Part shown: positions 2,741 through 62,348 of the stretch, one piece after another
Numbering within the stretch: the stretch's first letter is position 1
Layout: every line of letters begins with the position of its first letter
Assembly: GCA_019693395.1 (NCBI GenBank)
Contig: JAAMXP010000010.1
Location: 1 to 64,000, forward strand
Source of the DNA: Ettlia oleoabundans
Lineage: Eukaryota > Chlorophyta > Chlorophyceae > Chlamydomonadales
Direction of reading: 5' to 3'
DNA length: 64,000 nucleotides
Program-made: the position numbers and the translations under genes
Notes under the pieces: model-generated
The model's database searches: none
The model's input: the letters and a program-made list of their open reading frames with translations, nothing else
What the model was told of the DNA's origin: nothing

Positions 2741-6900
<4,160 letters not shown>

Positions 6901-22342: not shown

Positions 22343-23678
22343 TTAGTGCGCACCGCTGCGCTTGCGCTCCAGGAAATCGCACTGCTCCTTGGACAGGCGC
22401 GCCTGCTCGTCGGCGGTGACGTAGCGGTAGGATGAGGCGGCAGGGGCGCTCCAGGAGGAGGAGGAGGAGGAGTTGAGGGCGGAGCTGGAGCTGCTGTTAG
22501 ACACGGGGCTGGGGCGGAAGGAGGGGCGGCGGGCAGGAGTCGCGCTGCGGCCGCGGGTCGGAGCAGGCGCAGGGGAGCGGCTGGTCTCGCGAGCCTTGCG
22601 CTCCAGGAACGCCTGCTGCTCGGCGCTCAGGCCAGAGGCAGAGGGCGCGGAGGCGGCAGGGGGGTTGTAGGAAGCAGGGCTGCTGTTGGAGGGGCGGAAA
22701 GCGGGGCGGCGGGCAGGGGTGGCGCTGCGGCTGCGGGTCGGAGCAGGCGCAGGCGAGCGGCTGGTCTCACGAGCCTTGCGCTCCAGGAATGCCTGCTGCT
22801 CGGCGCTCAGGCCAGCAGTCTTGGGGGCAGAAGAGGCGGGGGCCGCGGCGGAGCTGAAGCTGCTGTTAGCAGCGGGAGAGCTGGCACGGAAGGAGGGGCG
22901 GCGTGCAGGGGTAGCGCTGCGCCCACGGGTGGGGGCGGGCGCAGGAGAGCGGCTGGTCTCGCGAGCCTTGCGCTCCAGGAATGCCTGCTGCTCGGCGCTC
23001 AGGCCAGCAGCCTTGGCAGGGGCAGTGCTGCGGCCCTGCAGAGCGAACATTGGGCAAGAGCGGTCGGCGGTGAGGGGCCTAGTTGGGCTATGTGGTCTTT
23101 GCGGCAAAAAGCGGATGCTGCACCGCTCTGACTGTGAATATCCGACGCAAAATGCGACAAACGATTTTGGAGGCAACTACGGACAGTCAGCACAGCTTGG
23201 GAGTCCCCGCCAGGGTACATCCGGAGAGCTCACCCGGCCAGCATCAGGGGCGGGTGACGAACTGGTCTCCCGCTGCTTCCTCTCCAAGAAAGCCAGCTGC
23301 TCAGCTGACAGCCTGGCAGTGTCCAGAACCACAGCCTGGACGCGCAGGCGCTGCAAAGAGGAAGGGATAATGGGCAGGTGAGAGTCGCACGGCAGCGGCA
23401 CACGCCAGCAGGGTGGCCTGATACAGCAATGGCAACCGGTGAGCACGGCCAGCAATGGGCACAATGACATCCTTCCGCAATGCCGCGAGGGTGTCAGCTC
23501 GCAATCAACCCCTTGCTGAGCAGCGGCACCATGGGCATGCAGTTGCTGCACCAGTCCTTGCCACCAACGACGTGCTGATCATGTGCAGTGCAATGCTGCG
23601 TCGCACCTGCACCCGGGGTGCGCGAGCAGCAGAGGGCCGCTGAGCAAACACCCGGCTGGACAGTTGAGCAGCCTGCAT
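22343..23678 (-). CDS. Plastid-targeted tandem-repeat disordered protein; candidate pyrenoid Rubisco linker
   Basis: Three exons (23607-23678, 23234-23350, 22343-23035) give 293 residues. Residues 1-30 (MQAAQLSSRVFAQRPSAARA, then RVQRLRVQA) look like a chloroplast transit peptide with a VQA cleavage site. The mature part has five copies of an amphipathic helix, consensus (G/R)LSAEQQAFLERKxRE, starting at residues 37, 74, 138, 198 and 276. Between helices lie disordered spacers rich in Ser, Ala, Pro and Arg; the first 40 residues of repeats 2-4 are almost identical (helix plus SRSPAPAPTRGRSATPARR). The period is 60-64 residues for repeats 2-4. Strongly basic overall, one Trp, one Cys. Transit peptide, about 60-residue period, one short helix per repeat, basic disordered spacers and about 300 residues match the design of EPYC1, the Chlamydomonas Rubisco linker, but I see no EPYC1 sequence homology. 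It adjoins an LCIB gene. Rubisco binding is inferred, not shown. Confidence 0.8.
22400..23005 (-). repeat. In-gene tandem repeats of the linker candidate
   Basis: Three consecutive units run on the minus strand (23005-22814, 22813-22634, 22633-22400; 192, 180 and 234 bases). The first 120 bases of each are near identical at DNA level and encode the helix plus the PAPAPTR/ATPARRP spacer; the remaining bases differ in length and sequence. A degenerate helix unit lies upstream in exon 2 and another at the C-terminus. Confidence 0.9.
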
Positions 23679-24416
23679 TGTTCCTTTAGCTCCTACAAGA
23701 ATATCACTACCGATGTAAGGATTTCGGTTAGAATATTGTTGATTCGGCGCAGGCGATAGAAAGGGTGGTAGAACCGGGGGTTGATTCTACCACAGCACCT
23801 GCAGCAGGGGCTGCTGTGCTGCGCGGGGTGCTGATTCACGCATTCAAATGCCGGTTTTAGTACGAGTTCTGGGCGGTGCGCCTGGCTTCCGATGAGCCAA
23901 ATTGGATCGTGCTTGCTGGCCAGTTACATGTACTTAACCTCGCCGCCCTCCTTGACATTTTGGCAGCCGCTTTGTCAGCGACGGCTGTGTCAAGGAGGTG
24001 CCGTGTCCACCCCTTGATTTGCGCCCAGCCTTATGCTCTGCTGCCTCTTCTGCCTCAATGTACATGCAACTGATGCCTGTTAGTGTCGCTACTTACAGGG
24101 CCGGGCAACAGTGTGTAGGTTCTGGACAAGCGTCAGGCGCGAACCGCTGGACAAAATACAAACTTTGAATATGAAATACATAACATAACCTTTGTCAGGC
24201 TGATACAGTCCAAACGTTTTGTGCGCGCTTGCAATTGCGTGGTGGGTAACAAGTTAACCTGTGGATGCGTTCCCACACAAAAGGGTCATGGCAGGGAATA
24301 AAGTTGCCAGTGGGCGCAATGGCAGGTATTGCCAGTGATGGGCAATAGCAGCTTTGAAGCACAGCCAGGGATGACTAGCAGGATCCATTGAAGTGCCACA
24401 TATAACGGTACATGAT
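23679..24416. promoter_or_regulatory. Linker promoter and LCIB-1 3' region
   Basis: 738 bases between the linker start codon and the LCIB-1 stop codon, both genes on the minus strand. The linker promoter must lie here, as does the LCIB-1 3' UTR. A perfect 9-bp inverted repeat (GTGGTAGAA ... TTCTACCAC) spans 23765-23793, about 90 bases upstream of the linker ATG. No other gene seen. Confidence 0.5.
24093..24097 (-). terminator. Poly(A) signal TGTAA of LCIB-1
   Basis: TGTAA on the minus strand 320 bases past the LCIB-1 stop codon. Confidence 0.5.
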
Positions 24417-27400
24417 TTAGTTGGGCATCTTGTACTTCTCCTCCAGCTGCTCCCACACCTTGCGCAGCTCGGCATCTGCAACAAGCCAAGCAGGGCGGGA
24501 GGCTGAGGCAGGACAGCAACAAGACAAAGACTGTACCAGCCAGCGCGGGACACCAAGGCGATGATAGGCAGCAGAGCATGGTGCGCAGCTGGCTTACAGG
24601 CAAGGCAGCAGCTCGCAGCCTGTCTTACTCTCGGCAAAGCTGGTGTCAATGATGGTTGAGTTGTCGGCAGTGGCGCAGCGCTCTGGCGTGCCCTTCACAA
24701 TCTTGGACTGCCAGCTGGGCACAGCGGTGGCACCAGTGCCGTCCAGCCCCTCCTCCTTCATCAGGGAGAGGTAGCGCTGCAGGCGTGCCCTCTGTGCGCG
24801 GCGCGAATCCTTGGAATCAAAGGCGTAGGGCGCCTCCTCCTCACGCAGCATGGTCTGGCCACCCTGGCTGCACACATCAGCAGGGCCCGCCACCAGGCGC
24901 ATCTGACGGGGCGTCATGGGCTGCACAGCACAGGGGCAGGGGCATAGACCTCATTTCAAGATGGTGGTAGCAAATTTCATCAACACTTGAAGCCAAGTGC
25001 TTGAACCTGGCCTGAAAGTCTTGTGCAGAATGTCCTTGCTATCGGTGCTTCAACTTACTTCATGCAAGAGCTCCACACCTACGACACCTTTTATCATTGG
25101 ACTACTCAAGAGCTCACCGGCATGGCTGACAGGTCCAGGTGGGTCTTCACGCCATCAACCACCACGTAGGCGGAGGTGGGGGCAACAAACTCCATGTTGG
25201 GCGAAGCATCCTCGAAATCATTAGACCAGTTGTGGATTTGCACGCCAGTCACGACTGCATGCAGAGGCGGACGGCAACCAGGAAAAGAGTTGAGCACAAC
25301 TGGTGGTGTGCGGAGCACAGGCAGTGGCATGCGGTGATGTGTGCGGTTATAGCACGCAGTGTTGTGGCTAGCGCCACCTACCCTCCCTACTGTCCACCCA
25401 CCCGCGTAATCGGCCTTGTCTGTGTTGACTGTCTTTGAGATGAGGAACTCAAGGTCGTCGGAGATGGTGCGCTCAGCAACCTTGGTCACATCAACTGCAG
25501 ACATGGGGACAGAAGCGGGCAAGGGCAGGCAAGCAGCAAAGTGAGCTGCATTCCAGTGGCCAGGCTGGTTTGTCCAAGTGACCTCCAACACAGTCTGGTT
25601 TGAGTGCGTTTATCAGTCGCGTGCATCAAGGATTAGGCATTTGCTGGGCACGTGCAGACAGTGAGCAAGAGTGAGGGAACGTACCGAGGCTGAGGCCCTT
25701 GACCGTCTCATCGGTGAAGCCCTCGTGGCGCAGGCGGCGGGCAATGCGCTGCTTCAGGATGCTCATCTCAGGGTCAAGCGCATCGTGCACTGCAAGCGCA
25801 TCGTGCACAGGTAAAGCAGTGAAACAACTTAGTGCAGCAGCAGAAGCTCGTAGCAAGAAATGCCGATCTCGGGCATGATGGCAGCAGCTTGGCAAGGCAG
25901 CGCCCAAAACCAGGCAGCATGTCAGGCTTCCAGTTGGCTCACCTCCGGGAATTTTGCAGTTGCAGGTCAGGCCCTCGCTCTTAATCTCGTTCGTGGCCTT
26001 GATCAAGGCACCGCAGGCACAAGACTGGCCGGGGCGACCGGGGCGGGACATGGGACCAACCTCGCCACTGGCATTGATGCTGCAGCAACATAGCAGCGTA
26101 AAAGCAGGATAAATGATCCCCAACAGCGCATGGTATGACCAAAATGTTCTTGACTTGCTTGAGGGTACTGTAAGGCCAGCCCGTCTGGACTTTTTGTTTT
26201 GGCGGCACCGATTCTTGAATCAGGGGGGGGGGGGGGGGNNNNNNAAAAATTTGTAGGGGCTGTTGCTGCTCTCCTGCCCTTCCCTTGCTTATACTGATCC
26301 CCTAGGGACTTGTTTACACTCAATGCTAACACCCAGAGCCGATAAAAATATACTTTCAGCCACATCAGCCTTTATGGCGGCCACCGCCCCTGCCCGTACC
26401 CCTGCCTCTGCCCCTATGCGAGAGCATGCCGTGACATGGAGGCAGATATGAGCTGCGTTCCTCCATTGCAACCTTCTTTGGAGGCTGCAGCAAGCAGCAA
26501 GAACTGGAGGAATGGCGGCAGCCTGGCCGCCACTTTTCCACCTCGCTGCCGCCCTGCCGACGTGGGCCTGGTGACAGTAGCACCGCTCTTCTTCTGCCAC
26601 CTGTCGTCCCTCTCTACCGTCCCCCCACACCCACACACAACAGGCTTACGTTTCACGACAATGGCGATGCGGCCAGGGGGGCTGTTGATCAGCATGGCTG
26701 GTTAATTCATGCTCTTTCTTGCTGACCGGCTGCGGGTCAGCCCATGACCACATCTACCACCCCCTCACAAAGGCCTTTACTATCCACTCTGACACTTCCC
26801 TGTACTCCCTGACATGTGGTGTTATCATCTGGGGCAACCCAAAGATGAAAACCAGGCTGAAAACGCTGTTTTAAGCGTTTTTGTGTTTTTTGTATCCCCT
26901 CCTCTTTTGACCAGAACGGGGGGGGGGGGGGGGGGGGNAAAACAAAAAGTCCAGACGGGCTGGCCTAAAGGCAAGACAGAAAAATCACTCTAGCATGGAC
27001 CATAAAACAACACTTCGCTGCCATGCTGTGCCAAGTACATGCCTGAAACAATCTGCTTATGCACCTGATGTGTGGGAAGGAGAAGAAGACGTAGCGCTCC
27101 TTGTTGCTGCTGCACAGGGGGGAGTGGCTGAAGCCGGCGCCCATGCCAGTCACGCCGCAGGTCAGCACACCACCCAGGCCGTTGGTGGAGAAGGCGGAGC
27201 CAAACACCTCCTCAATGCGGTGCTTCAGGGTCACAGTCACCTCGTCACGGCACAGGTTCACCATGGCTGCAAGTAGGGGGCCAAGAGGGAGATGCAGGGG
27301 CAAGAGGGGTGACACAACGGCTAACAACGCGTACGATGCCAGTTGGCCGCTGATATCACTCCTGGCTTGAAGCTCCCAGCGAAAATCTTGCTGACAGATC

Positions 27401-28499
27401 GCGGAGGGATGGTCCTCTTAGTTGAGTATTCATGCCTGCCCGGTGATTGGCGCTCACCGATTGAGTTGTCTCCTGTGAAGCCAAAGGCATAGAGCGCCAT
27501 CTCCACACGCTGCATGAAATCGTCAGCACCCAGAGCACCCTCAAACTGCTTCTGCACCGCGTTGGCACGCCCTGCACAGCAGAAAGGCAGGCTCTTCGTC
27601 AGTCTTAATCTAACACTTTCCATGTTTCTGCCCGCAAGCTTAACTTGGCTTGCGGGCAGAAACGCGGCAAGGCCCAGACACGTGCGCTGAACCGGCATGA
27701 CAAGCCCCACCGACCAACTCTCGCTGGCATCTCCCATCCACCTCAGCACCCACCGGTCAGGTACTCCACCTCTGCCGACTCAGGAGCGGCCTCCAGGGCA
27801 TCAGCCTTGGCAGCTGCCCGTGCCACTGCCTCTGGGCCGCCAATGATGATGGTACCGTCCGATTCCACAATGATCATCTTGCCGCCGGCCTCAATTACGG
27901 TCTCCTCATTGGCAGCGGCAGCTGTAAACGGGCATGCAAAGAGGGGGTGGAGCTGGGACTGGAAACAACCATGAGACCAGCTGGCATGCCGCAATGCACG
28001 ACACCCAGACGTGAAGATACCGCGCCTGCAGCAGCCCTGAGGCAGCATACAGCTTAGGCATCAGGCCTGCTCTGCGAGCGAAAGCACTGCGGCTTGCATG
28101 TGCACCAGCTGCACCCATGCCCTGAAAGTATTGCATGCACCACGGGTTGCCAAGTCACCCACGGACCCGAGCGGGACTACCCAGGTCTACCAGCGCTAGT
28201 GGAAGCACACGCATTCAAGGACAGAAATCCCCGCTGGTTTGGGCGTGATGCACTCAACCCATCCTGGGCATGCCTGCAAGGCACAATTCTGAAACCCAAG
28301 CCTCACCGTCAGCAGCTGCCGCGTTGGTGAATATGACCCGCTGGCGGCGAGCCTCAGCCTTGTGCGGAGTGCGGCGGGAGGTCGATCTGCCGGCATGAAG
28401 GTTGCTGCGGGAGGCGCGAGGCGCGGAAGCCTTGTGGGCGCCGCCGCTGCAGCAACTGCAGGTGGTGCGCAAAGAAGCAGCACGGAGGGCGAGGGGCAT
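24417..28499 (-). CDS. LCIB-family protein 1 (low-CO2-inducible B, theta-type carbonic anhydrase family)
   Basis: CCM protein; Chlamydomonas LCIB/LCIC sit in the chloroplast stroma around the pyrenoid and help recapture CO2. Ten exons (28307-28499, 27754-27921, 27458-27571, 27065-27266, 25943-26079, 25685-25789, 25402-25494, 25118-25254, 24629-24920, 24417-24475) give 499 residues. Residues 1-60 are a Ser/Arg/Ala transit peptide (MPLALRAASLRTT). A segment around IEAGGKMIIVESDGTIIIGG precedes the LCIB core: QKQFEGALGADDFMQRVEMAL, NLCRDEVTVTLKHRIEEVFG, GLGGVLTCGVTGMGAGFSHSP, FFSFPHIS, GRPGQSCACGALIKA, VAERTISDDLEFLI, VVTGVQIHNW, LTPRQ-type MTPRQMRLV. Cys164, Asp166/Arg165, His224 and Cys246/248 are candidate zinc ligands and catalytic dyad of this beta-CA-like fold, an assignment to be verified. 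Intron 4 carries a transposon. Head to head with BST-1. Confidence 0.95.
25774..25807 (-). repeat. Short tandem duplication across the intron 5 / exon 6 junction of LCIB-1
   Basis: The exon 6 start TGCACGATGCGCTTG is present twice in direct succession, separated by CAG. Only the second copy follows an AG and fits the reading phase; LCIB-3 has a single copy at this junction. Confidence 0.75.
26239..26244. other. Assembly gap (N) after a poly-G run
   Basis: Six N bases follow a run of about 16 G inside the transposon; the sequence is unresolved at a homopolymer. Confidence 0.95.
26938..26938. other. Single N after a poly-G run
   Basis: One N follows a run of about 20 G immediately before the right terminal inverted repeat of the transposon. 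Confidence 0.95.
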
Positions 28500-28796
28500 T
28501 TTGGCTGGAGTCGTGGCTAAAAGTCGATACTTGTAATGGAGTGACGAGCAGTTTAATGAAGACAAACCAGCGCGAAACCAACTCTACCATTGCAGCTGCT
28601 TCGCGTGCTGTGCTTCTCCCGGACGTCAACACCCCGCTGCCTGCATGCAGTTGCAAGGTTCCTGATCACATCCTTCATCGTAAGACATTCAAATATTGCT
28701 TTTGCCGTTACGACACCCCGCCAGTGCCAGCGTCCCTGAGTCTACCAACGCAGCCATCTACTCCCACGCCTTTAAACCTCGCGCATCCACCCGGGA
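28500..28796. promoter_or_regulatory. Bidirectional promoter of LCIB-1 and BST-1
   Basis: 297 bases between divergent start codons of LCIB-1 (minus) and BST-1 (plus). Both are plastid CCM-family genes, so shared low-CO2 control is plausible. I looked for the GANTTNC enhancer core known from the Chlamydomonas CAH1 gene and did not find it in either orientation. Confidence 0.55.
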
Positions 28797-31491
28797 ATGG
28801 CCTCCAGCACATTGATCAGGCCAATGGTGGCGGCCTCGAACACCAGCGCGGCCCTGGCACGCCCCACCGCCACCCACCGGGGGTTGGCGGCACAGCTCCT
28901 GCGCCAGCGCCGCCAGCCCAGCCTTGCGGCTTTGCGCCAACACACTGCCACCTGCCGGTGCAACCGGTGCCGGGGCGCTGTGGTGCGCACCTTTGCCGTG
29001 GCCACCACCGACAAGTCTGAGCCAGAACACCCATACTTCAGCGACGACTGGAAGGAGTACAACCGCCGCTTTCAGCGCCCGGTGGGTGCTCATACAGGCA
29101 TTCTGCACCGCCAACCATCGTGCTGCTCCCTTTTGGGATACAACAAGACGCATTAAAAATTGCTTCTTGTTTGCTTGCTGATTGTTGATGGTGTGTTCCA
29201 TGCACCTGCCATCAGTGGCACCAATGCTGCTCCCAAGCATCCCTTCAAAGTCCTCCAACAGGACCAATGTTCACCACACATACATGCAGGTGTTTGACTT
29301 TGAGCGCTGGAAGAAGCACCGCAGCTCCAGCCGCTACCTGCGCCATGTACTGGGCATCTCCGACTCTAAAATTGTGAGGCGCTGCCGGTGACTGCAACCT
29401 GGGGCACAATATTGTGGGGACGTGTGTTCTGGCAGAAGGTTGTGACAAGGGGGCATTGTGCTGGGTCGCTCACACCGGAAAGAATCACCAAAGAGTGCCT
29501 CCTCTCTCTATCTGCAGATGCAAGGCCTGGCCAAGCCCCTCGCGTATGTGATGACACTGGCCACTGGTGTGGCCCTCTACCACACTCTGGCAGAGGTGAG
29601 TGGGTATGGCTCAGCCGGGGCGTTGCTGGCAATCCCTACCTGCGTCCGACATTCCGCCGTCATACTTCCTTGTGTTGTGTGCGTGCGACTGGTCGCTCCA
29701 ACCCACTAATGACCTTGAGATTCCACCCTCCCTGCCTGCAGGCTGGCTACCTGACCGATGTGCCCGACCTCAAGGCCACCAACGCGCCCTTTGGCCTCAC
29801 ATCCTTTGCCCTCTCCCTGCTGCTGGTGTTCCGGTGAGCCCAGGCATGAAGGTGCACTGCCTTCTTAGGGCTGTTCTCTGCTTCAACAGCCGGATACATT
29901 TAAGTTTCTGGGCCATTTCACCTGGCAATGATGCTCGACTCATGCCCACTTTCATATCTCTGTGCAGCACCAACACGAGCTACCAGCGGTGGGACGAGGC
30001 GCGCAAGATGTGGGGGTCCATGGTGAACCGCAGCCGCGACTTCACGCGTCAGGCCCTGGGCTACGTGCCTCACTCCCAGCCAGAGCTGCGCTCAATGCTG
30101 GTCCGCTGGAGCATCGCTTACCCGTGCGTCCAGTGCTGCGCTGCCATCCAGCTTTCAACTCGCCGTGCCTGCCTGCCTGCCTGCCTTGCTGCCTGCCCGC
30201 TCTGCCCATTCCTGCCTGCCTGCAGATTGTGCCTGCGTTCTTTCTGGCGTGCTCAGCTTTTAGTCAGTGCAACGCCCCTGCGCTTCACTGTTCCTGTGTT
30301 GCCATGCAGGCGTGCTCTGATGTGCCACCTGCGCCCGGGTGAGAACATTGAGGAGGAGGTGAAGGACATCTTGCTGCCCGAGGAGGTCAAGGCCCTGGTG
30401 GCATCCACTCACAGGCCAAACTACTGCATGCAGGTGCATATATACCTGGCTGTGCAACTGCGTTTCTGGTTAGTGCCTGCACACTGCTTGGTAGTGATTG
30501 CAGGACAGGTACTTTTTGTTGTGTAAAGTTTGTGCAGCCCAAAACACTTATCGAGCACTAACAAGCCGGCACCAGCAACAACATCTTCTTGTTATCCTGC
30601 TGCCCTGCAGGTGCTGACCGCGTGCATCAAGCAGGCCCAGCTGCCGGCAGCCGTTACCAGCAACAGGGACAGCTTTGGCGCTGTGCCGGCGGGTGCTGCA
30701 TACCGCATGGATGAGAATCTAACCGTGTACTCAGATGTGACGGGTGGCTGCGAGCGCATCCTGCGCACCCCCGTGCCGCTGTCCTACACCCGGTGAGAGT
30801 GGGTGGCAGGACACGGCAGTGTGCTGGCTCCACAGTCCTGGGACTCTCAGCATGTGCTTGTTGCTGTGTGATGCAATGCGGGTGCCAATCTTGTTCCCAG
30901 CAACCACTTAATGCCTTGCTTACCACTCTCACTTTCCCTGCCTCTGTTTATGCAGCCACACTTCCCGCTTCATGATGATCTGGCTCACGCTGCTGCCCTT
31001 CACGCTGTGGGACAACTGCGGCTGGGCCATGCTGCCCATCACATTCATCGTCTCCTTCCTGCTGCTGGGTGGGTGGCATGGCTGGTCGTTCCCATTGCTA
31101 GCCTCAGCCAATACTAGCCTTAGTGTTGTGAGATGGTGGCAGTTGCGTGGCTGGATGCCTTTAGTAGTTCCCTGCCCTCGCTGGGCTTCCACTCACCTGC
31201 CTTTGCCCGTTGCCTAATCTGTTGGTGTTCCATGTTGCCGCAGGCATTGAGGAGATTGGTGTGAGCATTGAGGAGCCCTTCACCATCCTGCCCCTGGAGG
31301 CCATTGCCCGCACCATTGAGGCCAACCTGCGTGAGCTGGAGGCCACCCACGGACCTGCAACACTGGGCAAGGCACCAGAGGGTGCACGGGATGCTTATGA
31401 ATTGCTGTATGAGGTTATCCCAAGCACTGCCCCTAACAGCAGCATCAGTGCCAGCTCCAACGGCGCCCCCAGTGTCAGCATCAAGGCATGA
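28797..31491 (+). CDS. Bestrophin-like protein 1 (thylakoid BST type, putative bicarbonate channel)
   Basis: Anion channel of the bestrophin/UPF0187 family. In Chlamydomonas, BST1-3 lie in thylakoid membranes near the pyrenoid, are proposed to admit bicarbonate to the lumen, and associate with LCIB/LCIC. Nine exons (28797-29081, 29290-29373, 29518-29595, 29742-29833, 29968-30123, 30310-30433, 30611-30792, 30956-31068, 31244-31491) give 453 residues. Residues 1-70 are a Ser/Ala/Arg transit peptide. Then YFSDDWKEYNRRFQRP and VFDFERWKKHRSSSRYLRHV; a membrane segment KPLAYVMTLATGVALYHTLA; ATNAPFGLTSFALSLLLVFRTNTSYQRWDEARKMWG, the family hallmark; a late segment RFMMIWLTLLPFTLWDNCGWAMLP; and GIEEIGVSIEEPFTILPLEAI, the acidic motif after the last membrane helix. 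The tail is Ser/Asn-rich. Exons 2-8 match BST-2 and BST-3 in length exactly. Confidence 0.95.
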
Positions 31492-32034: not shown

Positions 32035-35000
32035 CTACTGGTTATGTCCACTGCTGCTTCTGGCCAGCCGGTGTTCACCACCCGTGGGCATCGGTGCTGC
32101 TTCTGTCACAGCATCAGGCGTGGCCCTGGACGACTCCCTTGGCCGCCGTGTGGGCGAGCGCTGTCGCAAGGACCGCCGCACCCCAGAGGGAGAGCCTGTG
32201 TCCTGGCCTGCAATACCAGCAGGGGAAGGTTTTAGGGGTGCAACTTAACATCCACAGAGACGACGGGACGACATGCAAAGCAGCAAAGCCATGAGGCAAG
32301 CGGATGAGGAGATGGTGGGCTGGCAGCAACGAGGTGCCTGGGCCGGTTACCGCATGTTGTGAGCTTTTGTTGTAAGGTTGGGAACAGTTGTTGACTTGCA
32401 CTGGCTCAGGAAGTGCCCATAACAACAGATGGCTGACGGTGAATGGTTTTTTTATTCCTGCATGCTCACCTGCAAACCTGGGTGATGGCATGTGCATGAC
32501 GTGGTAGTCTGAGGCATACTGCTGAAGTTGCCCACCAGCACTTGCATATGCTGCTGAGCCAGCGCCAGCTCCAGACTGTTGCCGCTGCTGATGGTGCGCA
32601 GCTGCTGACCCGGCCGCTGCAGCCAGGTGCCTCCAGGCAGGGCTGGCGGCAGCGGGGGGTGCTGCCGCGGCAGCCCTGCCACGCCCCGTGACGATTGGCT
32701 TCAGGTGACTGGGGGGGCCCACGAAATCCACCTGGCCGCTCTCCTCTGGGCTCCACTTGCCTGCTGGCCGGCCATGCTGCTGCTGCTGGAACTGCTGCTG
32801 TACCACCCGGTGTCTGCGGCGGTACAACAGGAAGCCGGCCACAGCAGCTGCCAATGCTAGCGCAGCACCTGCTGCGCAGGCAGCAATGATCACCGCGGTG
32901 TTGCTGCTGCTGGTGCTGTTCGTGGCGAGAGCAGTGGCAGTGTCGGTGCTGCCGCTGGTAGCAGGAGCACCAGCTGCGGTGGATGGGATGGTGGAAGCGG
33001 CAGGTGCTGCAGCAGGGTTCAGGTTGCGAACCCCGCCGCTGCCGGCAGCGTTGCCCGGCTGTGGGGTGCAATCTGTGCAGGACCGCATGGTGGGTGGCTT
33101 GGTGCCACTCTGACACTGTGCATCCGGCACGATGCTGCCGCTAGCATTGGAGCAGGCCACGGTGCGTGTCTGCAGCACAAGGCGGAGGGCATGGTGGTGA
33201 AGCCACTAACGGCCTGTGGGCATTGTCGGCACTCACATACGGTGGGCAAAATTTAGGGGGGCTTTCCACAATGAAGCAGGGCTGTGAAGAAACAGCGCCA
33301 AGCCGTCGCAGGAGCCACTTGCAAGAAACGACATGCACCGGGAACACAATAGGAGTAACGCTCGCCCCCCAGCATGACTCACTTGTGTGCATTCAGCTGT
33401 GCACCGGCTCCAGGGGCCCAGCCGCCAGGAGTGGCCGCTGTTTGAATTTGTGTGTGCAGCCGTGCTGTGGGCAACTTCACCTGCAGACATAGCAGCAACG
33501 GAGGTTTCTTGGCCATGCATGTCATTAGGACCTTGGTTTTTAGTTTCAGAACGGGAGACACAACAGTGGCAGAGAGGTGCATGCCGTCGTGACTCACTAG
33601 GCGAAGGGGCAATGGCAGCTGGCCCAACAGCAGCCACTGTAGCCGATGCACTCTGGAGGGTTGGGGGTGGCAGCTCGCCTCTAACCTCTGAACCATCAGC
33701 CGTGGCAATGCTGCAGCACAACCCAAGTATTATCCAATGTGTTGCACAGGAGCAGAACAAAACAAGCAGGTTTTCTGGCACAACTGTTTCGCGTGCAACA
33801 CATTGGGATGGCTGCCAGTTTTGCACACCAACGGGAGCACTGGGGTTGCACGCACCTGAGGCTGTACTGCCCAGAGGCCCCCGCCACGCCATCCACAACA
33901 AACGCATAGCCCACACCGGCTTTGAGGGAAGCCTGCACTCAAACGAGAAAGATGCATGGGAGACCCACATTCAAGGCTGTCAGGCTAAGGTGCAGCAAGG
34001 TACGGGGACTCCAGGAACAAACGTGAAGGTGCAGAGCAAGTATTAGCAACCGATGGTGGGCTTGTTTTCATTCACAGGCATGCAGCTGGGACCTCCCAGT
34101 GGCTCACCGTCAGCAAGGGCAGCACTCCGCAGGCATTGTTACTGCAGGCAATCGCCCGCAGCTCGCCGCCGCTATCCACGTCGCTCAGTAGGTACAGCCG
34201 TGAGTCAAAGGTAGTGGCCAGCGAGCTGCTGCCGCACAGCGAGGCAGTGACGGTGCAGTCGCTGACTGGTTTGAAGTAGTAAACCACATCCTGAAGCAAG
34301 GAGCAGAGTCATCGTGTGTTCGGAAACACAGATGCTGTTCATGCCGCATGATGAGAGGGAGAGATGAGAGGGGGCTTTGACCAGGAGCGCCCAAAAGTTT
34401 TCTCCAATGCACATGCGCAACATCCTATGCCAGGCTGGCCAGCAGGAAGGTGCAATGAGTTGAAAGTTTACGAATGTCTGAGATGGCAGTCCTGCCTTTA
34501 TGGTTCCCCACCCATTGCACGCCTAAACTTGTGCCTGCTTACCGGCGCACCCCCTGCATCAGCATCAGCGGCTCCGCACACCACATTGTAGTCATCGCGA
34601 TACTGGTCCGTATTGCCTGCGCTGCCTGTACTGCCCTGCTCGGTGAAGGGAAGCTCCAGCAGCACCTTGGGATAGTTCAAGGTGTCGCCCTTGCAGTCCG
34701 ACAGGGTCACAGCAACCTGAAGAAAGCAGGGGGCAAAATGAGGCATGGTACAGTGCAGTAGTGGAGCATTGAATAGCGATGGCAGCACCGCTTGACAGGA
34801 GGACGATAGCATCCCACGCAGTGCCCACCTGGTTGGCCCTGAACCGCGCATCGGTAGAGAAGGACTTGACGCGCACCGCCATCGGCTTGCTCGATGCGCT
34901 GTAGAAAGGAAACACTGCAGGCAGGCAGACAGCGACACGGGCTAGTGAGGGATTGTACTCACAAGCGTTATTTTTGTTACCAGTCATGATTGGCGTAATC

Positions 35001-51875: not shown

Positions 51876-52662
51876 GTGAGCTGCAAACGCCTGGCAAGAA
51901 TTCGAGGTGGTCGCCGGGCCCGGTTGCTGCAAGATGCTCGACTCGTCGCACTTCCGCAGTTCAAGGCATTGCACTGTTAAGTGGAGCATTCCCTCCTACA
52001 AGGCAGAGTCTACTACATGTACTGCCAGTGTAGTGCCTCACGAGCTTCGGCTAGAACAACATGTGTAGATTGGGGTTGTGTATACATGGGATATGCATGA
52101 TAGCACCGGCTTCTATATCAGTTGTGGCCAGGTTACCTGCAGCGAGGCAAAGGCAACAAGACGGGCAAGGTGATGTCAACAACAAGAAGAAGAGAATACG
52201 CAGAACCGTGATTTGTACCACGGCCGTACAGGGAGGAACGGGGCAGGGCCCCTGGCTCCCAAAATTTAAAAAAATTTATAAAAACAAGGTGCAGATCAGC
52301 CAGGATCAATCCTCCGTCGCTTCCCAGCCGGCTGCTGCGCTCGCGGGCGCCGCCCTATTATCACCCGTCTTGCACCCCCGCTGGCGGTGCAAGCTTGGAC
52401 GTCGTAGTGCTGTTGCCACACCATGGCGAAATCTACATTTATTGCAGAGCCGACAACAGAAAATTATCATATGCCATGTCGTCACTACTGCTGCATTCGG
52501 ATATGGTGGCAGCAACGGCGGCAGCACAGCGTGCCTAGCAGCTCTACCATCCTGGGGTGGGGTTAGGCTCAGGTCGGGTCATTGAGCTCGGACTAGGCTC
52601 GTTCTTTATTCCTGTTTAGGCTCTTCTGTCCCGAAGCACGAGTGCAGACTGCCGTCGGCAAC
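51876..52662. promoter_or_regulatory. Bidirectional promoter region of BST-2 and LCIB-2
   Basis: 787 bases between divergent starts, the longest of the three BST/LCIB intergenic regions. An open frame at 52061-52585 has no recognisable family and is probably chance or leader sequence. Confidence 0.5.
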
Positions 52663-55600
52663 ATGACGAACTTGGCACTCTGCAGCGCGGCATTGTTGGT
52701 GCGGGCCGATTCCCGCGCTGCCGTCAATGCTGCCCGTGGCAAACTGCTGCGCTCCAAGATTCCGGCGCAGCTAACAAGCCGCCGGGAGATTCAGGCTTCA
52801 TTCTGGGGCCGCAAGAAGGAGGCTGCAAAGACGGAGGCGGCTCCTGAAGCGGCAGGTAAGCCGATGATCGTCGCTCGCCGAGGTGTGCCTGCGCAAGGGG
52901 TGTGGACTGAGCCGCTGCACAGACCCCACTACCACACGGGTGCCGCTGGAGCGTGGCATTTTTGCAGACCATTGCGTTTTAGGATGGGGTTTCTGATGTT
53001 GAACCTGCTCTTCTTCACCAAACCATGTTGGATCATCAATCCATGTTGGAACCATTTTGACACAGAAAAGGTCCACAATGCCCCGCTTACCATCCTGTGC
53101 TTCTCATTCATGATTTGCAGAGCCCGCTGCAGCTGCTCCGGCTGCTGATGCCGCCGCCGCTAACGGCCCGGTGGAGATGACCGTGGAAAACTCGAGCCAG
53201 ATCATTGACACAGGCGACAAGATGATCATTGTGGAGCCCACCGGCACCATCATCATTGGCAATGCTGAGGCTGTGGCGCGTGCACAGGCGGTTGAAATTG
53301 AGGCAGCCCCTGAGTCGGCAGAGGTGGAGTACCTGACCGGGCGTGCCAACGCGGTGCAGAAGCATTTCGAGGGTGCTCTGGGTGCTGACGATTTCATGCA
53401 GCGCGTGGAAATGGCGCTCTATGCCTTTGGCTTCACAGGAGACAACTCCATCGGTGAGCGCTGGGTGGCAGCGAGTTACCAGCAACTTAGCCAGGCAGCG
53501 GCACCAGTCACCTCTAAGCAGCCGGAATCCCACTCACACTGCGTGCAGCCAGGTGGCAATGTCAACCGCCAAATCATTGTTCGCCAAGATGTACACTCCA
53601 AGATGTACAAAATGTTGCAACATCACCCTCCTTTCCCCGTGTCCTCCCAACTGCAGCCATGGTGAACCTGTGCCGTGACGAGGTGACTGTGACCCTGAAG
53701 CACCGCATTGAAGAGGTGTTTGGCTCCGCCTTCTCCACCAACGGCCTGGGTGGTGTGCTGACCTGCGGCGTGACTGGCATGGGCGCCGGCTTCAGCCACT
53801 CTCCCCTGTGCAGCAGCAACAAGGAGCGCTACGTCTTCTTCTCCTTCCCACACATCAGGTGGAGGAGGCAGGGGGGCCGGGTGCCACCAGGCTTTTAGGC
53901 TGTTATATTTAGCCTGGGTCACTATTGCTGGGTCCCAGCTGCCATGAGCTGCGCGCTGCTTTGACGGAGGTCAAAGTGCAGCTGGCTGGCAGATGTTTGC
54001 AACTCAGCTTGCTTCTTGTTTGCTATCATCCCTGCAGCATCAACTCCAAGGGTGAGGTTGGTCCCATGTCCCGCCCCGGTCGCCCCGGCCAGTCTTGTGC
54101 CTGCGGCGCCCTGATCAAGGCCACCAACGAGATCAAGAGTGAGGGCCTGACCTGCAACTGCAAGATTCCCGGAGGTGAGCCAGTTGAAAGCCCGACAGGC
54201 TGCTACGTTTGGGTGCTGCCGAGCTTCCCCCGCAATAGCCCTCTCTCGCCATTATCCCCCTTGGTCGTATCTACAGCTTAGTTTGTTCCCTCGGTGCCGC
54301 ACTAACTTGTCGCACTGCCTTGCCTGCAGTGCACAACGCGCTTGACCCTGAGATGAGCATCCTGAAGCAGCGCATTGCCCGTCGCCTGCGCCACGAGGGC
54401 TACAATGACGAGACGGTGAAGAGCCTTGACCTTGGTACGTGCCTGCTTGCCTGCCTTCCTGGTGCTTGTGCCCTGCATGCTTCTGTGTGTGATTGCCTGT
54501 TTGTGCTTGACGCCTAGCTGGGAATTTGTTTCTTACCACCTGAAATAAGCTTGTTGGTTGCTCACTGCCTGCCCTTGCCCACTTCTACCCCCCACGTCTG
54601 CAGTTGATGTGACCAAGGTTGCCGAGCGCACCATCTCCGACGACCTCGAGTTCCTCATATCAAAGACAGTCAACACAGACAAGGCCGACTATGCCGGTAG
54701 GTTGGGACACCGGCCTGAAAGAAAAATTCTCGCAGCACCTGTACTCACAGCTCAGTGCAAACGGTTGGAGAGATGTGTTACAGGTTGAACACAGGCTGAA
54801 CTTACAAAGATTGCCCCACCATTTGCGAGGTTGTTGCGGGATGGTTCATATGTCCCCCGCCTTCCTTGCCTCTGTTTGCAGTTATCACTGGTGTGCAGAT
54901 CCACAACTGGGCTTGCAACTTTGAGGATGCCTCGCCCAACATGGAGCTTGTTGCCCCCACCTCTGCTTACGTGGTGGTCAATGGTGTGAAGACCCATCTG
55001 GACCTGTCAGCAATGCCGGTGAGTGGTTAAGCCTTGCTGGTAGGTGTTGCCACAATATAGCGGAGTTGAGGCAATATATGCAGCTTTGCTTCTCCTCTGG
55101 AATGCACAGGTGCTATCAGCCTCCTTGTCGTTTTTCGTCGCAAATGCCCTGCCCTCCCTGCTGCAGCCTCTGACGCCCCGTCAGATGCGCCTGGTGGCGG
55201 GCCCCGCTGATGTGTGCAACCAGGGTGGCCAGACCATGCTGCGTGAGGAGGAGGCGCCTTACGCCTTTGACTCCAAGGATTCACGCCGCGCACAGAGGGA
55301 GCGCCTGCAGCGGTGGGTTTACAAAAATGTTTGCTTGTCAGCAGTGCATGCATCGACAGTTTGCTGCTTTGGTGTTGGTGTTGGTAGCCTGAGGTGGTCT
55401 TTTAGAAACTAAGCGGCACTGCTGCTGGGGCCTTTCAACCTGTCCTCACTTGTTCTGGTCTCCTATCTAGTCTCACAAAGTCGGCCCTGCTCGTCACTGC
55501 TGCAGGTACCTCGCTCTGATGAAGGAGGAGGGGCTGGACGGCTCCTCTGCCAGCTCCGCGCCTGCCTGGCAGTCCAAGATTGTGAAGGGCACGCCAGAGC

Positions 55601-55856
55601 GCTGCGCCACTGCCGACAACTCCACCATTATTGACACCAGCTTTGCAGAGGGTGAGCACCCAGCTGTGCCCAGTGCAGAATTTTTTTGGTGCTGGCTGAC
55701 CCGTCCTGCCTCAATTACTACATGCAGGTTAGACTGCCGTCACTGAAATTTACTTGGTTACCATACCTGGTTTCTCATGCATTGCCTGCTGCAGATGCTG
55801 AGCTGCGCAAGGTGTGGGAGATGCTGGAGGAGAAGTACAAGATGCCTGCTAAATAA
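52663..55856 (+). CDS. LCIB-family protein 2
   Basis: Same family and proposed role as LCIB-1. Ten exons (52663-52855, 53121-53453, 53657-53858, 54038-54174, 54330-54434, 54604-54696, 54882-55018, 55167-55312, 55506-55651, 55795-55856) give 517 residues. The transit peptide begins MTNLALCSAALLVRADSRAA. The pre-core segment is present (IDTGDKMIIVEPTGTIIIGN) after an Ala/Pro-rich insert. Core motifs NLCRDEVTVTLKHRIEEVFG, GGVLTCGVTGMGAGFSH, FPHIS, SCACGALIKA and ERTISDDLEFLI are intact. It differs from its paralogues in two introns: the one separating YLTG from RANAVQK is precisely absent, and an extra one (55313-55505) splits QR/YLALMKEEG. The exon 7 product has NWACNFEDASPNMELV, which diverges from the NWSNDFEDASPNMEFV of the other two. 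Confidence 0.95.
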
Positions 55857-56503: not shown

Positions 56504-59201
56504 TTAGTTCCATGTGCTTGCGCCATTGGCACCAGCCAGAGCCCTCTCAGCAGCCTGGCTGCCATTTCCGTTAGCGGACGGAGCTGCATTAGGAATCATC
56601 TCATACAGAAGCTCCGTTGCATTCTTGGCACCCTCTGGTGCCGTGCCCAGTGTTGCGGGTCCATGGGTGGCCTCCAGCTCACGCAGGTTGGCCTCAATGG
56701 TGCGGGCAATGGTCTCAAGGGGCAGGATGGTGAAGGGCTCCTCAATGCTCACACCAATCTCCTCAATGCCTGCGGGCAACATGGAACACCAACGGGTCAG
56801 GTAAGGGGCAAAGGCAGGTGACTGAAAGCACAGCGACGGGCAGGGAACTACTGTAAGCATCCCAGCCACGCAACTGCCACCAAAATGAGAACGCTAAGGC
56901 TAGTATTGGCTGAGGCTAGCAATGGGAACAACCAGCCATGCCACCCACCCAGCAGCAGGAAGGAGACGATGAATGTGATGGGCAGCATGGCCCAGCCGCA
57001 GTTGTCCCACAGCGTGAAGGGCAGCAGCGTGAGCCAGATCATCATGAAGCGGGAAGTGTGGCTGCATACACAGAGCCAGGGAAAGTGAAACTAGTAAGCA
57101 AGGCGTGAGTGGCTGCTGGCCTAAAACTTGGGGTAACGCCAATAAGATAGGTCCAAGCACATGCTGAGAGTCCCAGGACTGTGGAGCCAGCACACTGACA
57201 TGTCCTGCCACCCACTCTCACCGGGTGTAGGACAGCGGCACGGGGGTGCGCAGGATGCGCTCGCAGCCACCCGTCACATCTGAGTACACGGTCAGGTTCT
57301 CATCCATGCGGTATGCAGCACCCGCCGGCACAGCGCCAAAGCTGTCCCTGTTGCTGGTAACGGCTGCCGGCAGCTGGGCCTGCTTGATGCACGCGGTCAG
57401 CACCTGCAGAGCAGCAGGATAACAAGAAGATGTTGTTGCTGGTGCCGGCTTGTTAGTGCCCAATTCGTGTTTGGGGCTGCACTAAGTTGCACACAACAAA
57501 AGTACCTGTCCTGCAATCACTACCAAGCAGTGTGCCGGCACTAACCAGAAACGCAGTGGCACGGCCAGGCGTTAATGCACCTGCATGCAGTAGTTTGGCC
57601 TGTGGGTGGATGCCGCCAGGGCCTTGACCTCCTCGGGCAGCAGGATGTCCTTCACCTCCTCCTCAATGTTCTCACCCGGACGCAGGTGGCACATCAGAGC
57701 ACGCCTGCATGGCGACAAAGGTATAGACAAGCGTGGGGGCGTTGCACTTTTAAAAGCTGAGCACGCAAGCCAGAACGCAGCCACAATCTGCAGGCAGGCA
57801 GGAATGGACAGAGCGGGCAGGGCAGGCAGGCTAGGCAGGCAGGTAGGCACGGCGTGTTGGGCAAGCTGAGTGCCAGCACAGTAGTGACGCACGGGTATGC
57901 GATGCTCCAGCGGACCAGCATTGAGCGCAGCTCTGGCTGGGACTCAGGCACGTAGCCCAGGGCCTGACGCGTGAAGTCGCGGCTGCGGTTCACCATGGAC
58001 CCCCACATCTTGCGCGCCTCATCCCACCGCTGGTAGCTCGTGTTGGTGCTGCACATAGATATAAAAGTGGGCATGAGTCAAGCATCATGGCCAGATGAAA
58101 TGGCCCAACAAATTGAGTTGTATCAGGCTGTTGAAGCAGAGAACAGCCCTAAGCAGCAGTGCATCTTATGCCTGGACTCACCGGAACACCAGCAGCAGGG
58201 AGAGGGCAAAGGATGTGAGGCCAAAGGGCGCGTTGGTGGCCTTGAGGTCGGGAACATCAGTCAGGTAGCCAGCCTGCAGGCAGGGAGGGTGGAATATTGC
58301 GTTGATAGACTATCGCATGCAGCATGGTGGCCACCCAATTAGCTGCGAGTAAGAACACTTCCAAGCAACGAAGTGTTGACTAGAGCCAGGGCAGCTGCAA
58401 CTGTCACCTCTGCCAACGTGTGGTAGAGCGCCACACCAGTTGCCAATGTCATCACATATGCCAAGGGCTTGGCCAGGCCTTGCACCTGCACCCAGAAAAT
58501 AGCGGCACCGCATGGTCGGTAAACTTGATGCCGTAAACTTGATGCCACATAAAAGCGACCCACACTATACGCATAGCTCGTGCTACTGTCACAATCTTGA
58601 ACCACAAGACAGATTGAAATCTGGTCTTCTCCCCAAGTTGCCGCCTCAGCCAGCAGCAGCGGCTCACAATTTTGGAGTCAGAGATGCCCAGCACGTGGCG
58701 CAGGTAGCGGCTGGAGCTGCGGTGGGTCTTCCAGCGCTCAAAGTCAAACACCTGCATGCATGGGAAGGGTATAATTTGCATTTACAAAACAGTGTGAACA
58801 GTGATGGCTGCAAGTGATGGTAGGAGTACAGCACCGTAATCCTGCAGGCTGCCGGCGGCAAGTCTTCTGGCAGTTGTAGGAGGTTTTGACTCCAAAGCCA
58901 CTTCCAAGCCTGACACCCGACCACGCACCGGGCGCTGGAAGCGGCGGTTGTATTCCTTTCGCTCATCGCTGAAATAAGGTGGAAGCTCATCAGACTTGTC
59001 CGTTGTGGCGGTGGCAGAGGGACGCAAACCCAACTGCTTGCAGCGGCTGGTGGAGCATTGGCGCTGGCTCAAGGCGGCAAGCCCGGGCTGGCGCTGCCGC
59101 AGCTGTGACACCAGCTCACTGCTGGGTCGGGGCTGGCGCGCAGCGCCGAGGCATGTTGCTGCTTTGGAAGGGAGCCTGCTCACGCCCAGAACGCAAGACA
59201 T
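56504..59201 (-). CDS. Bestrophin-like protein 3 (thylakoid BST type)
   Basis: Same family and likely role as BST-1 and BST-2. Nine exons (58929-59201, 58668-58751, 58408-58485, 58182-58273, 57893-58048, 57581-57704, 57222-57403, 56949-57061, 56504-56769) give 455 residues. The start MSCVLGVSRLPSKAATCLGA was chosen as the opening of a transit peptide; an in-frame ATG at 59276 would add 25 residues. Exon 1 has YFSDERKEYNRRFQRP where the others have SDDWKEY, and exon 3 starts VQGLAKP where they have MQGLAKP. Exons 1-3 and their introns are diverged, while exons 5-8 and their introns are nearly identical to BST-2. The C-terminal tail (NGNGSQAAERALAGANGAST) is unique. Hallmarks RTNTSYQRWDEARKMWG and GIEEIGVSIEEPF are intact. 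Divergent from LCIB-3. Confidence 0.94.
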
Positions 59202-59458
59202 TGCGCTGGTTTCGCTTTCAACCACACAAGGCAAGCTGGTTTTGCCAAGCCACAAGGCCGTATAGAACGACAGCAACTTAGCTGATAGGACTGCAAGCAG
59301 TGATCAACGCCTCTGAAGCCCGCGAAACTCTCCAACGTGGTCGCTGCTGTGCATGCGTTGACACACCGCCTCTTTCCGGAGCATCGCTGTCCACTCATTA
59401 CAGCTTAACAACGTTCATCAATACACTATTATTGTTCGATATCAATAAGGACAGCATA
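59202..59458. promoter_or_regulatory. Bidirectional promoter of BST-3 and LCIB-3
   Basis: 257 bases between divergent start codons, similar in size to the BST-1/LCIB-1 interval. AT-rich just upstream of the LCIB-3 start (about 59425-59445). Confidence 0.5.
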
Positions 59459-62348
59459 ATGGCCGCTCTCGCCCAAAGCACCCTCCAGCAAGCCCGCGCC
59501 GACTGCAGCGCCGCATTGAACTCGGCTCGCAGGCTGCGCAGGAACACCAAGGCCGCCCAGCTGTTCGCCACCCGCAGCACACACAAGGTGGACCGCAAGA
59601 CTGTTTTGCGGGCCACAGCTGAGGGTAAGTACACCAGCAGATGCCAGTTTGAGGATAATGTGTGTATGGGACGAATGCATGGCGCCGTGCCCAAAGATTA
59701 GTGTCCACCTGCCGACGCTGAGCCAAGTCTACCACCGACTGGTGCCAGCACTAGGGGCCAGCAATGGCACCAGCAATGGCCCCTAGTGCTGGCCGGCTGT
59801 GACCTATGTGTATGGTGGCATCCTGCCACTCCTCAATCAATGGGATTCCCCCAACTTGTTGTTTCTGCCCCCCTTCCGCAGCCACTAGTTCGGTCATTGA
59901 TGCTGGCGGCAAGACCATTATTGTTGAGTCTGATGGCACCATTATTATTGGCAGCCCGGAGGCGGTAGCCCGCACACAAGCAGCCAAGGACACCACTGAG
60001 AACGTGCCCGAAACCGTGGAGGTCGAGTATTTGACCGGTGGGTGCTAACATGCAAGTGCCACATGGCGGTCCCACTGGCCACTTGTATGCGCACTGGTAG
60101 TTGCTGGCTGAGAACCCATGCTTGTGACACATGTGCTTTGTGCACAGTTGACTGTAGCTGCCCATCAGCTTACACTTCTTGCACTCCCTAGTTGTCTTTG
60201 TATGCACACTTCACCGCTGCCCCGTGACTGCTGTGCAGGCCGTGCTAACGCGGTGCAGAAGCAGTTTGAGGGTGCTCTGGGTGCTGACGATTTCATGCAG
60301 CGCGTGGAGATGGCGCTCTATGCCTTTGGCTTCACAGGAGACAACTCCATCGGTGAGCGCTGGGTGGCAGCGAGTTACCAGCAACTTAGCCAGGCAGCGG
60401 CACCAGTCACCTCTAAGCAGCCGGAATCCCACTCACACTGCTTGCAGCAGGTGGCAATGTCAACCGCCAAATCATTGTTCGCCAAGATGTACACTCCAAG
60501 ATGTACAAAATGTTGCAACATCACCCTCCTTTCCCCGTGTCCTCCCAACTGCAGCCATGGTGAATCTGTGCCGTGACGAGGTGACTGTGACCCTGAAGCA
60601 CCGCATTGAGGAGGTGTTTGGCTCCGCCTTCTCCACCAACGGCCTGGGTGGTGTGCTGACCTGCGGCGTGACTGGCATGGGCGCTGGCTTCAGCCACTCC
60701 CCACTGTGCAGCAGCAACAAGGAGCGCTACGTCTTCTTCTCCTTCCCACACATCAGGTGCATAAGCAGATTGTTTCAGGCATGTATTTGGCTCAGCATGG
60801 CAGCGATCTGATGTGTTGTTTTATGGTCCATGCTAGTTGCAATACCTGTCTTTGCCGGTACAAATACCCTCAAGAACATCCTGGTCATACCAGGTGCTGT
60901 TGGGGATCATTTTCCTGCTTTAACGCTGCTATGTTGCTGCAGCATCAATGCCAGTGGCGAGGTTGGTCCCATGTCTCGCCCCGGTCGCCCCGGCCAGTCT
61001 TGTGCCTGCGGCGCCTTGATCAAGGCCACGAACGAGATTAAGAGCGAGGGCCTGACCTGCAACTGCAAGATTCCCGGAGGTCAGCCAACTGGAAGCCTGA
61101 CATGCTGCCTGGTTTTGGGTGCTGCCTTGCCAAGCTGCTGCCATCATGCCCGAGATCGGCATTTCTTGCTTCGAGCTTTTGCTGCTGCACTAAGTTGTTT
61201 CACTGCCTTACCTGCAGTGCACGATGCGCTTGACCCTGAGATGAGCATCCTGAAGCAGCGCATTGCCCGCCGCCTGCGCCACGAGGGCTTTACCGATGAG
61301 ACGGTCAAGGGCCTCAGCCTCGGTACGTTCCCTCACTCTTGCTCAATGTCTGCACGTGCCCAGCAAATGCCTAACCGGCGACTGATAAACGCACTTAAAC
61401 CAGACTGTGTTGGAGGTCACTTGGACAAACCAGCCTGGCCACTGGAATGCAGCTCACTTTGCTGCTTGCCTGCCCTTGCCCGCTTCTGTCCCCATGTCTG
61501 CAGTTGATGTGACCAAGGTTGCTGAGCGCACCATCTCCGACGACCTCGAGTTCCTCATCTCAAAGACAGTCAACACAGACAAGGCCGATTACGCGGGTGG
61601 GTGGACAGTAGGGAGGGAAGCGGGCATTATTTAGACACAGAATGCTGGCAAACACACGCGAGGGACGCCCGCCAATGCCCATGCCCCTGCACTTCACCCG
61701 CTGTGTCTAACCACTGTCTGATTGCTGTCCGCCTCTGCGTGCAGTCGTCACCGGTGTGCAGATCCATAATTGGTCCAATGACTTTGAGGATGCTTCGCCC
61801 AACATGGAGTTTGTTGCGCCCACCTCAGCCTATGTCGTGGTCGATGGCGTGAAGACCCACCTGGACCTGTCAGCAATGCCGGTAGGTGTTGCCACAATAT
61901 AGCCGAATTGAGGCACTATATTCAGCTTTGCTGGGATTCACAGGTTGTTATCAGCCTCCTTGTCGTTTTCGACGCAAACGCCCCGCCCTCCCTGCTGCAG
62001 CCTCTGACGCCCCGTCAGATGCGCCTGGTGGCGGGCCCTGCTGATGTGTGCAACCAGGGTGGCCAGACCATGCTGCGTGAGGAGGAGGCGCCTTACGCCT
62101 TTGACTCCAAGGATTCACGCCGTGCACAGAGGGAGCGCCTGCAGCGTTACCTGTCCTTGATGAAGGAGGAGGGGCTGAAGGGCGAGGTCGCTCCTCCTGC
62201 CTGGCAGGAGAAGATCATCACCACCACCCCCGCCCGCTGCGCCTCTGCTGATAACTCTGTGATCATCGACAGCAGCTTCACTGCCGACCCCGAGCTGCTC
62301 CAGATCAGGCAGAAGCTGGAGGACAAGTACAAGATGCCCGCTAAGTAA
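59459..62348 (+). CDS. LCIB-family protein 3
   Basis: Same family and proposed role as LCIB-1. Nine exons (59459-59624, 59882-60037, 60239-60352, 60555-60756, 60943-61079, 61218-61322, 61504-61596, 61745-61881, 62001-62348) give 485 residues. The transit peptide begins MAALAQSTLQQARADCSAAL. The pre-core segment reads IDAGGKTIIVESDGTIIIGS. All core motifs are intact, including NLCRDE, GGVLTCGVTGMGAGFSH, FPHIS and SCACGALIKA. The last intron of LCIB-1 and LCIB-2 is absent, so the last two coding exons are fused, and the C-terminus differs (VIIDSSFTADPELLQIRQKL). Intron 3 and intron 8 match LCIB-2, whereas introns 4-6 match LCIB-1, showing a chimeric history. Confidence 0.95.

Follow-up and report, generated by a model that had tools for sequence, protein, structure and literature searches.

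The window analysed here is 64 kb long and opens contig JAAMXP010000010.1 (75.9 kb, C4 below) in the 32.9-Mb, 1,230-contig genome assembly GCA_019693395.1 of the green alga Ettlia oleoabundans. It most probably holds a nuclear locus for the pyrenoid and the CO2-concentrating mechanism (CCM) of a Chlorella-like alga. A predicted homologue of the Rubisco linker CsLinker stands next to a pair formed by a bestrophin-like channel gene (BST) and an LCIB gene, and this pair is present three times (Table 1). The idea of a CCM locus came from an earlier note made from the sequence without database searches, and it is borne out, as are that note's gene identities and its linker call. No report of this gene cluster was found among the published papers searched by title and the start of the abstract.

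As the genes are rich in introns, a small two-strand gene finder was self-trained on the window and about 145 kb more of the alga's own DNA. The splice signals it learned, GTGAG-type donors and CTGCAG acceptors, were judged plausible. All seven CCM genes (the linker, three LCIB and three BST genes) were recovered, between 22.3 and 62.3 kb. The linker and LCIB-a lie on the same strand, with the linker start 738 bp beyond the LCIB-a stop. In all three pairs the BST and LCIB genes are arranged head to head, their start codons separated by 297, 787 and 257 bp (pairs a, b and c, respectively).

The linker and its Rubisco contacts

The linker matches the Pfam family CSLinker (PF24429) in four stretches (E 8e-63), and its sole match among solved chains, up to E 10, is the alpha3-alpha4 fragment of CsLinker bound to Chlorella Rubisco (PDB 8q05_Z, E 3.8e-17). 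The protein carries five copies of the helix motif LSxEQxxFLERK, the Rubisco-binding "sticker", spaced by 37, 64, 60 and 78 residues, which is inside the range of 20–120 residues given for CsLinker (PMC11570498). In the solved structure described there, the CsLinker residues F173, L174, R176 and K177 touch E51, D86, I87 and Y97 of the Rubisco large subunit (RbcL), and the sticker residues of the interface are Phe, Leu/Met, Arg and Lys (PMC11570498). F-L-E-R-K is retained in all five helices of the window linker, and the alga's own RbcL (rbcL is on contig C1228) retains all four contact residues. Given the PF24429 and 8q05_Z matches, together with the sticker residues and RbcL contacts that are kept, the protein is, judged by its sequence, a CsLinker homologue. 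The earlier note had proposed a candidate linker, and the support is now stronger than that note could show.

The resemblance to the C. sorokiniana protein CsLinker (Barrett 2024, PMC11570498) extends over the repeated helix (LSAEQxxFLERKARE), the spacing, the RbcL contacts and the plastid-type, transit-like N-terminus, the last assigned by eye in our protein. Two features are different: the window linker ends in an extra helix common to its Micractinium relatives (VTADEQARLSKEQCDFLERKR), as seen in an alignment of eight rows (seven of the 14 linker hits and the window exon), and its gene adjoins LCIB and BST. CsLinker is reported to condense Rubisco and to be induced at low CO2 (PMC11570498).

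A second soluble linker is encoded on contig C653. It has the same motifs and an N-terminus similar to that of the C4 linker, and could in principle be the working protein, with the C4 gene as a minor paralogue. We consider this distinctly unlikely, as the C4 gene is intact and encodes a transit-like N-terminus (by eye) and five complete stickers at normal spacing, while the C653 gene is cut by the contig end and its model is incomplete.

Three copies of one BST/LCIB pair

Whole-protein family scans were made for LCIB-a, BST-a and the linker, and the other four copies were assigned through exon matches and alignment to copy a. LCIB-a (scanned as a 495-aa model) contains the full-length LCIB_C_CA domain (PF18599, E 5.6e-81). 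The best solved matches of LCIB-c are CrLCIC (5b5x, E 1.5e-108) and CrLCIB (5k5w, E 3.2e-108), the LCIB/LCIC pair of Chlamydomonas, but unlike that pair the window has three closely similar LCIB copies. BST-a matches PF25539 (Bestrophin_2) over its full length (E 1.1e-91) and the solved bestrophin-like protein 7ek1 (E 2.6e-61). PF25539 was used because the PF01062 profile matched no bestrophin, either in this genome or in 14 control genomes. The protein lengths that the earlier note had given for the three LCIB and three bestrophin-like genes were reproduced by the gene finder, with LCIB-a reaching its length after the start had been corrected by eye. The first LCIB-a exon proposed by the finder (the 495-aa model) was dropped on inspection of the DNA, and the start was provisionally moved to 28499 by eye.

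The genome was searched for LCIB and BST exon by exon, so that the counts are lower bounds. LCIB was found at four loci or more (three in the window cluster and one on contig C218). Bestrophin exons were found at three or more C4 loci and on at least six further contigs. Going by its best protein matches, the alga is a Chlorella near C. variabilis (BST-a 90% over 90% of the length, LCIB-c 95% over 55%). For the trees, 24 BST and 23 LCIB sequences were taken from 120 listed hits of each family, with the first 260 residues of Chlorella ohadii COHA_007383 removed. In the BST tree, which has no rows for Chlamydomonas BST1-3 and a single, long-branched Volvox row, the window copies group together, with C. 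variabilis 32075 next to them. In the LCIB tree the window copies join C. variabilis 8957, at a fork that is not strongly supported, and the C218 LCIB is separate from them, with C. variabilis 33527 (partial row, 29% of the columns). Conversion biases trees of this kind.

Two predicted proteins among the LCIB relatives have unusual architectures. The 848-aa Parachlorella kessleri N2152v2_000217 combines an LCIB domain (E 5.4e-70) with a CBM20 domain (E 1.6e-13), and could be either a true fusion, which would bring LCIB to starch, or the product of two gene models run together. In the 756-aa model COHA_007383, two consecutive LCIB domains are seen by eye, and these are probably two tandem LCIB genes fused by annotation.

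The window copies are mosaic. In columns 450–1200 of the BST alignment, copies a and b are 0.90–0.97 alike, introns included, with c at 0.61–0.73, and from column 1650 to the end it is b and c that are 0.97–1.00 alike, with a at 0.86–0.98 (200-column windows). Along the LCIB alignment the most similar pair changes from tract to tract, from b and c to a and c and back to b and c. Site patterns fall into 142 runs for BST, against a shuffle mean of 263 and minimum of 232, and into 289 runs for LCIB, against a mean of 508 and minimum of 452 (5,000 shuffles each). The longest LCIB run (51) lies outside the shuffle range (maximum 23); the longest BST run (30) lies inside it (maximum 32), which counts against the overall reading.

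The rest of each copy is strongly diverged. The upstream regions of the pairs have 0.34–0.57 identity, several introns scarcely align, and more than half of the first 110 LCIB codons differ nonsynonymously between copies. In the N-terminal region of BST, 20 of 99 codons are nonsynonymously different between a and b, and 45 of 98 and 44 of 97 in the comparisons with c. A recent tandem triplication was rejected, since the upstream regions and the LCIB N-termini scarcely align. The mosaic tracts, taken with the diverged upstream regions and N-termini, make the genes look like older copies held alike by gene conversion, not like a brand-new triplication. By this comparison of sequences, the six LCIB and BST genes appear to be one head-to-head pair in three copies under concerted evolution.

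The same stretches of 97–100% identity between copies might also arise if haplotypes or repeat copies had been falsely stacked in tandem by the assembly, and the extent of N-terminal sequence shared by BST-a and BST-b (the 20 of 99 codons above) would fit. Such an artefact is highly improbable: the upstream regions and LCIB N-terminal exons are at 0.42–0.57 identity, near random, several introns scarcely align, every copy is an intact gene model, and pairs a and b have about 18 kb of unrelated DNA between them.

Chlamydomonas BST1-3, which lie within 130 kb on chromosome 16 (PMC6708349), are likewise three very similar bestrophin genes close together. They differ from the window genes, which are mosaic copies with an LCIB gene placed head to head with every BST. 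BST1 and BST3 of Chlamydomonas are reported to interact with LCIB/LCIC (PMC6708349).

Neighbourhood, chance and regulation

The three LCIB and three BST genes that the earlier note had described as gathered here are all present, but as one pair in three copies they speak less strongly for gathering than six genes of independent origin would. It may be asked whether the proximity has any meaning: a BST/LCIB pair could have formed once and been copied in tandem, with adjacent repeats converting each other and the linker a neighbour by accident. One pair copied three times would account for six of the seven genes. With window copies counted once (2 LCIB, 7 BST and 5 sticker loci), however, random placement brings LCIB, BST and sticker within 10 kb in only about 3.5e-5 of cases.

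The neighbourhood in relatives was surveyed among the best 120 of 253 LCIB hits, the best 120 of 624 BST hits and 14 linker hits. By locus tags, the linker ABPG77_006254 of Micractinium sp. CCAP 211/92 adjoins the BST 006253, and at a separate place in the same alga the linker 009883 is two tags from the LCIB 009881. In M. tetrahymenae, the linker ABPG75_003711 lies between the LCIBs 003707 and 003724, which are 17 tags apart. In Parachlorella kessleri the BST N2152v2_006044 adjoins the LCIB 006045, and contigs of equal length suggest that one BST relative and one LCIB relative share a contig in C. variabilis, and likewise in C. sorokiniana. In the trees, BST 006253 and LCIBs 009881 and 003707 fall within the same larger groups as the window genes (supports 92/88 and 100/98), and LCIB 003724 sits in a different LCIB group.

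Several observations weigh against a meaningful cluster. Position in the relatives was judged from locus tags and same-size contigs, both of which are proxies. The C. sorokiniana linker is unlinked, on a 2.17-Mb contig, with its LCIB and BST relatives on a 1.68-Mb contig. The linker is close to a listed LCIB or BST in only three of the 14 hits; in one more, the second linker of M. tetrahymenae, it is on a BST contig but hundreds of tags away, four are on contigs shorter than 7 kb, and six share no contig with a listed LCIB or BST. The C653 contig had no LCIB or BST match in the exon-by-exon genome search. No 8-base word is common to the three divergent regions and the region upstream of the linker, and the 6- and 7-mers common to them are no more numerous than in random non-coding draws. 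The gene models are predictions of the self-trained finder alone. The Chlamydomonas enhancer word GANTTNC has a single occurrence in divergent region c and another ahead of the linker gene, as often as chance would roughly give.

The unlinked C. sorokiniana linker and the lack of shared promoter words are thus in keeping with proximity without meaning, but the linker is near LCIB or BST in two Micractinium species, at two separate places in one of them, and a Parachlorella BST adjoins an LCIB. On balance we regard accidental proximity as rather unlikely. The earlier note would have taken a lack of retention in sister species, along with no common response to CO2, as refuting its reading, and partial retention is what is found: it is seen in two Micractinium species and Parachlorella, but not for the linker of C. 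sorokiniana. BST1-3 and LCIB/LCIC of Chlamydomonas are reported to be induced at low CO2 (PMC6708349). The earlier note proposed that its cluster is co-regulated, and the window locus may be under shared low-CO2 control.

Within a pyrenoid locus of this kind, the linker would bind RbcL through its repeated helices, cross-linking Rubisco to form the matrix of the pyrenoid. CO2 that escapes from the matrix would be reconverted to bicarbonate by LCIB, and BST would be the channel through which bicarbonate enters the thylakoid lumen, as is proposed for both in Chlamydomonas. The linker gene sits directly downstream of LCIB-a, which shares its short divergent upstream region with BST-a. The extra copies of the pair may raise dosage, with gene conversion keeping the mature domains alike, and the divergence of promoters and most N-termini may allow different expression or targeting. 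A pyrenoid function of these very proteins is the presumed one, and we infer that dosage and a selective reason for the clustering lie behind the arrangement.

The genes between pairs a and b are outside the CCM set. The earlier note had named a subtilase, MPP6 and a TFIIS/SPOC gene as interrupting the cluster; the subtilase is confirmed, and the other two are not, as no Pfam family was matched in the pieces tried (MPP6 was not searched by name). A minus-strand model at 47545–48545 was provisionally set aside, as a plus-strand frame there has about the same score. Ahead of the cluster, at 290–13514, the window holds a short-chain dehydrogenase piece (PF13561, 290–1179, minus strand), a GAPDH-like gene recognised by eye (3584–6900, minus), a 5'-3' exonuclease domain (PF02739, 8349–10768, minus) and a TraB-family protein (PF01963, 11156–12360, plus). 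Rfam gave no match anywhere in the window at gathering scores.

Table 1. Coordinates of the features discussed (window positions unless a contig is named).
Feature	Position	Strand	Description
CsLinker homologue (predicted)	22343..23678	-	293 aa; 3 exons (22343-23035, 23234-23350, 23607-23678); gene model, PF24429
CSLinker motif copies	22355-22402 (below cut-off), 22526-22639, 22706-22819, 22898-23011, 23222-23320	-	PF24429 profile search of own genome
LCIB-a	24417..28499	-	499 aa; LCIB carbonic-anhydrase family, PF18599
Divergent intergenic region a	28500..28796		start codon of LCIB-a to start codon of BST-a
BST-a	28797..31491	+	453 aa; bestrophin-like channel family; gene model, PF25539
Subtilase-like gene	32114..38561	-	pieces 32114-35798 (joined by eye only) and 35994-38561 (PF00082, E 7.5e-23)
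One or more genes	40349..48566	+	no Pfam match in pieces tried
BST-b	49207..51875	-	440 aa; gene model, PF25539 exon matches
Conversion tract (putative), BST-b 3' part	49245..50961	-	97.0% identical to BST-c 56591-58295, introns included
Divergent intergenic region b	51876..52662		between start codons
LCIB-b	52663..55856	+	517 aa; gene model, PF18599 exon matches
Conversion tract (putative), LCIB-b	53339..53861	+	97.7% identical to LCIB-c 60238-60759, intron included; LCIB-a intron differs
BST-c	56504..59201	-	455 aa; gene model, PF25539 exon matches
Divergent intergenic region c	59202..59458		between start codons
LCIB-c	59459..62348	+	485 aa; gene model, PF18599 exon matches
CBM20-sticker gene	C266:17873-20639		563-aa model; CBM20 followed by seven to eight stickers; N-terminus plastid-type by eye
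Sticker gene with hydrophobic stretch	C957:2370-6056		822-aa model; nine stickers (seven Pfam stretches), hydrophobic stretch, charged P/K/A/E-rich repeat tail
Short sticker gene	C180:41510-42141		short model; two variant stickers near C-terminus, PF24429 E 8.3e-7; 5' end unsure
Weak sticker lead	C792:5075-5170		one weak variant sticker match, E 1.8e-4

Sticker proteins beyond the window

A genome-wide search with PF24429 and a motif query placed the CsLinker sticker in at least four more genes, on contigs C653, C957, C266 and C180. In the control search, PF24429 matched one of 14 control genomes, below the cut-off.

The C266 protein, in an earlier 549-aa model, matches both CBM20 (PF00686, E 1.2e-20) and PF24429 (E 1.3e-82). 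In the 563-aa model, the 355-residue frame of the sticker exon lacks a Met until residue 349, so that this exon cannot start its own gene with ATG, and read-through of exon 4 meets stops, so that splicing is needed. A tandem paralogue (C266:21778-23747) has CBM20 (E 9e-20) without stickers, the same intron phases and an equal second exon of 185 bp. A chance merger of two genes was judged unlikely because of the missing Met, the stops and the intron phases of the paralogue. From its model, the C266 protein is a candidate starch tether of the Chlorella pyrenoid. No report of a sticker-CBM20 protein was found among the published papers searched by title and the start of the abstract. The hydrophobic stretch of the C957 protein (mean hydropathy 2.0 over 19 residues) is a likely membrane helix; the 3' exons of this model are less certain and the gene may continue further 3'.

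Similar architectures with a different motif are described in Chlamydomonas: EPYC1, the CBM20-bearing SAGA1/2, and BST4/RBMP1, a membrane protein that was later judged to be no tether (PMC13167743, PMC11638005). Like SAGA1 and SAGA2, the C266 gene model joins a CBM20 starch-binding domain to Rubisco-binding motifs, and like BST4/RBMP1, the C957 model joins such motifs to a predicted membrane helix. The motif here is the CsLinker RbcL sticker and not the Chlamydomonas Rubisco-binding motif, so the likeness is one of architecture, and kinship in sequence is not claimed. The 2026 SAGA paper describes SAGA1/2 as conserved among Volvocales and not found in other algae, and its authors speculate that proteins of this type are present in other algae (PMC13167743).

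We consider the chances evenly balanced that a single RbcL-binding sticker serves Chlorellaceae as an address code for assembling the entire pyrenoid. The soluble C4 and C653 linkers would then form the matrix, the C266 protein would attach the starch sheath and the C957 protein the thylakoid membranes, and the C180 protein (perhaps also C792) would be recruited as a client, with one linker gene inside the LCIB/BST locus. This would be a convergent, large-subunit counterpart of the Rubisco-binding-motif system of Chlamydomonas.

The locus is a natural place to follow a linker, CO2 recapture and a bicarbonate channel together, and the conversion pattern is a clean case for asking whether dosage or separate regulation retains the three copies. 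Of greatest value, however, are the genes beyond the window. For the transfer of pyrenoids into crops, components that recognise the conserved Rubisco large subunit are wanted (Barrett et al., PMC11570498), and this genome supplies a candidate starch tether and a candidate membrane tether for Chlorella, both with the RbcL-binding Chlorella sticker.

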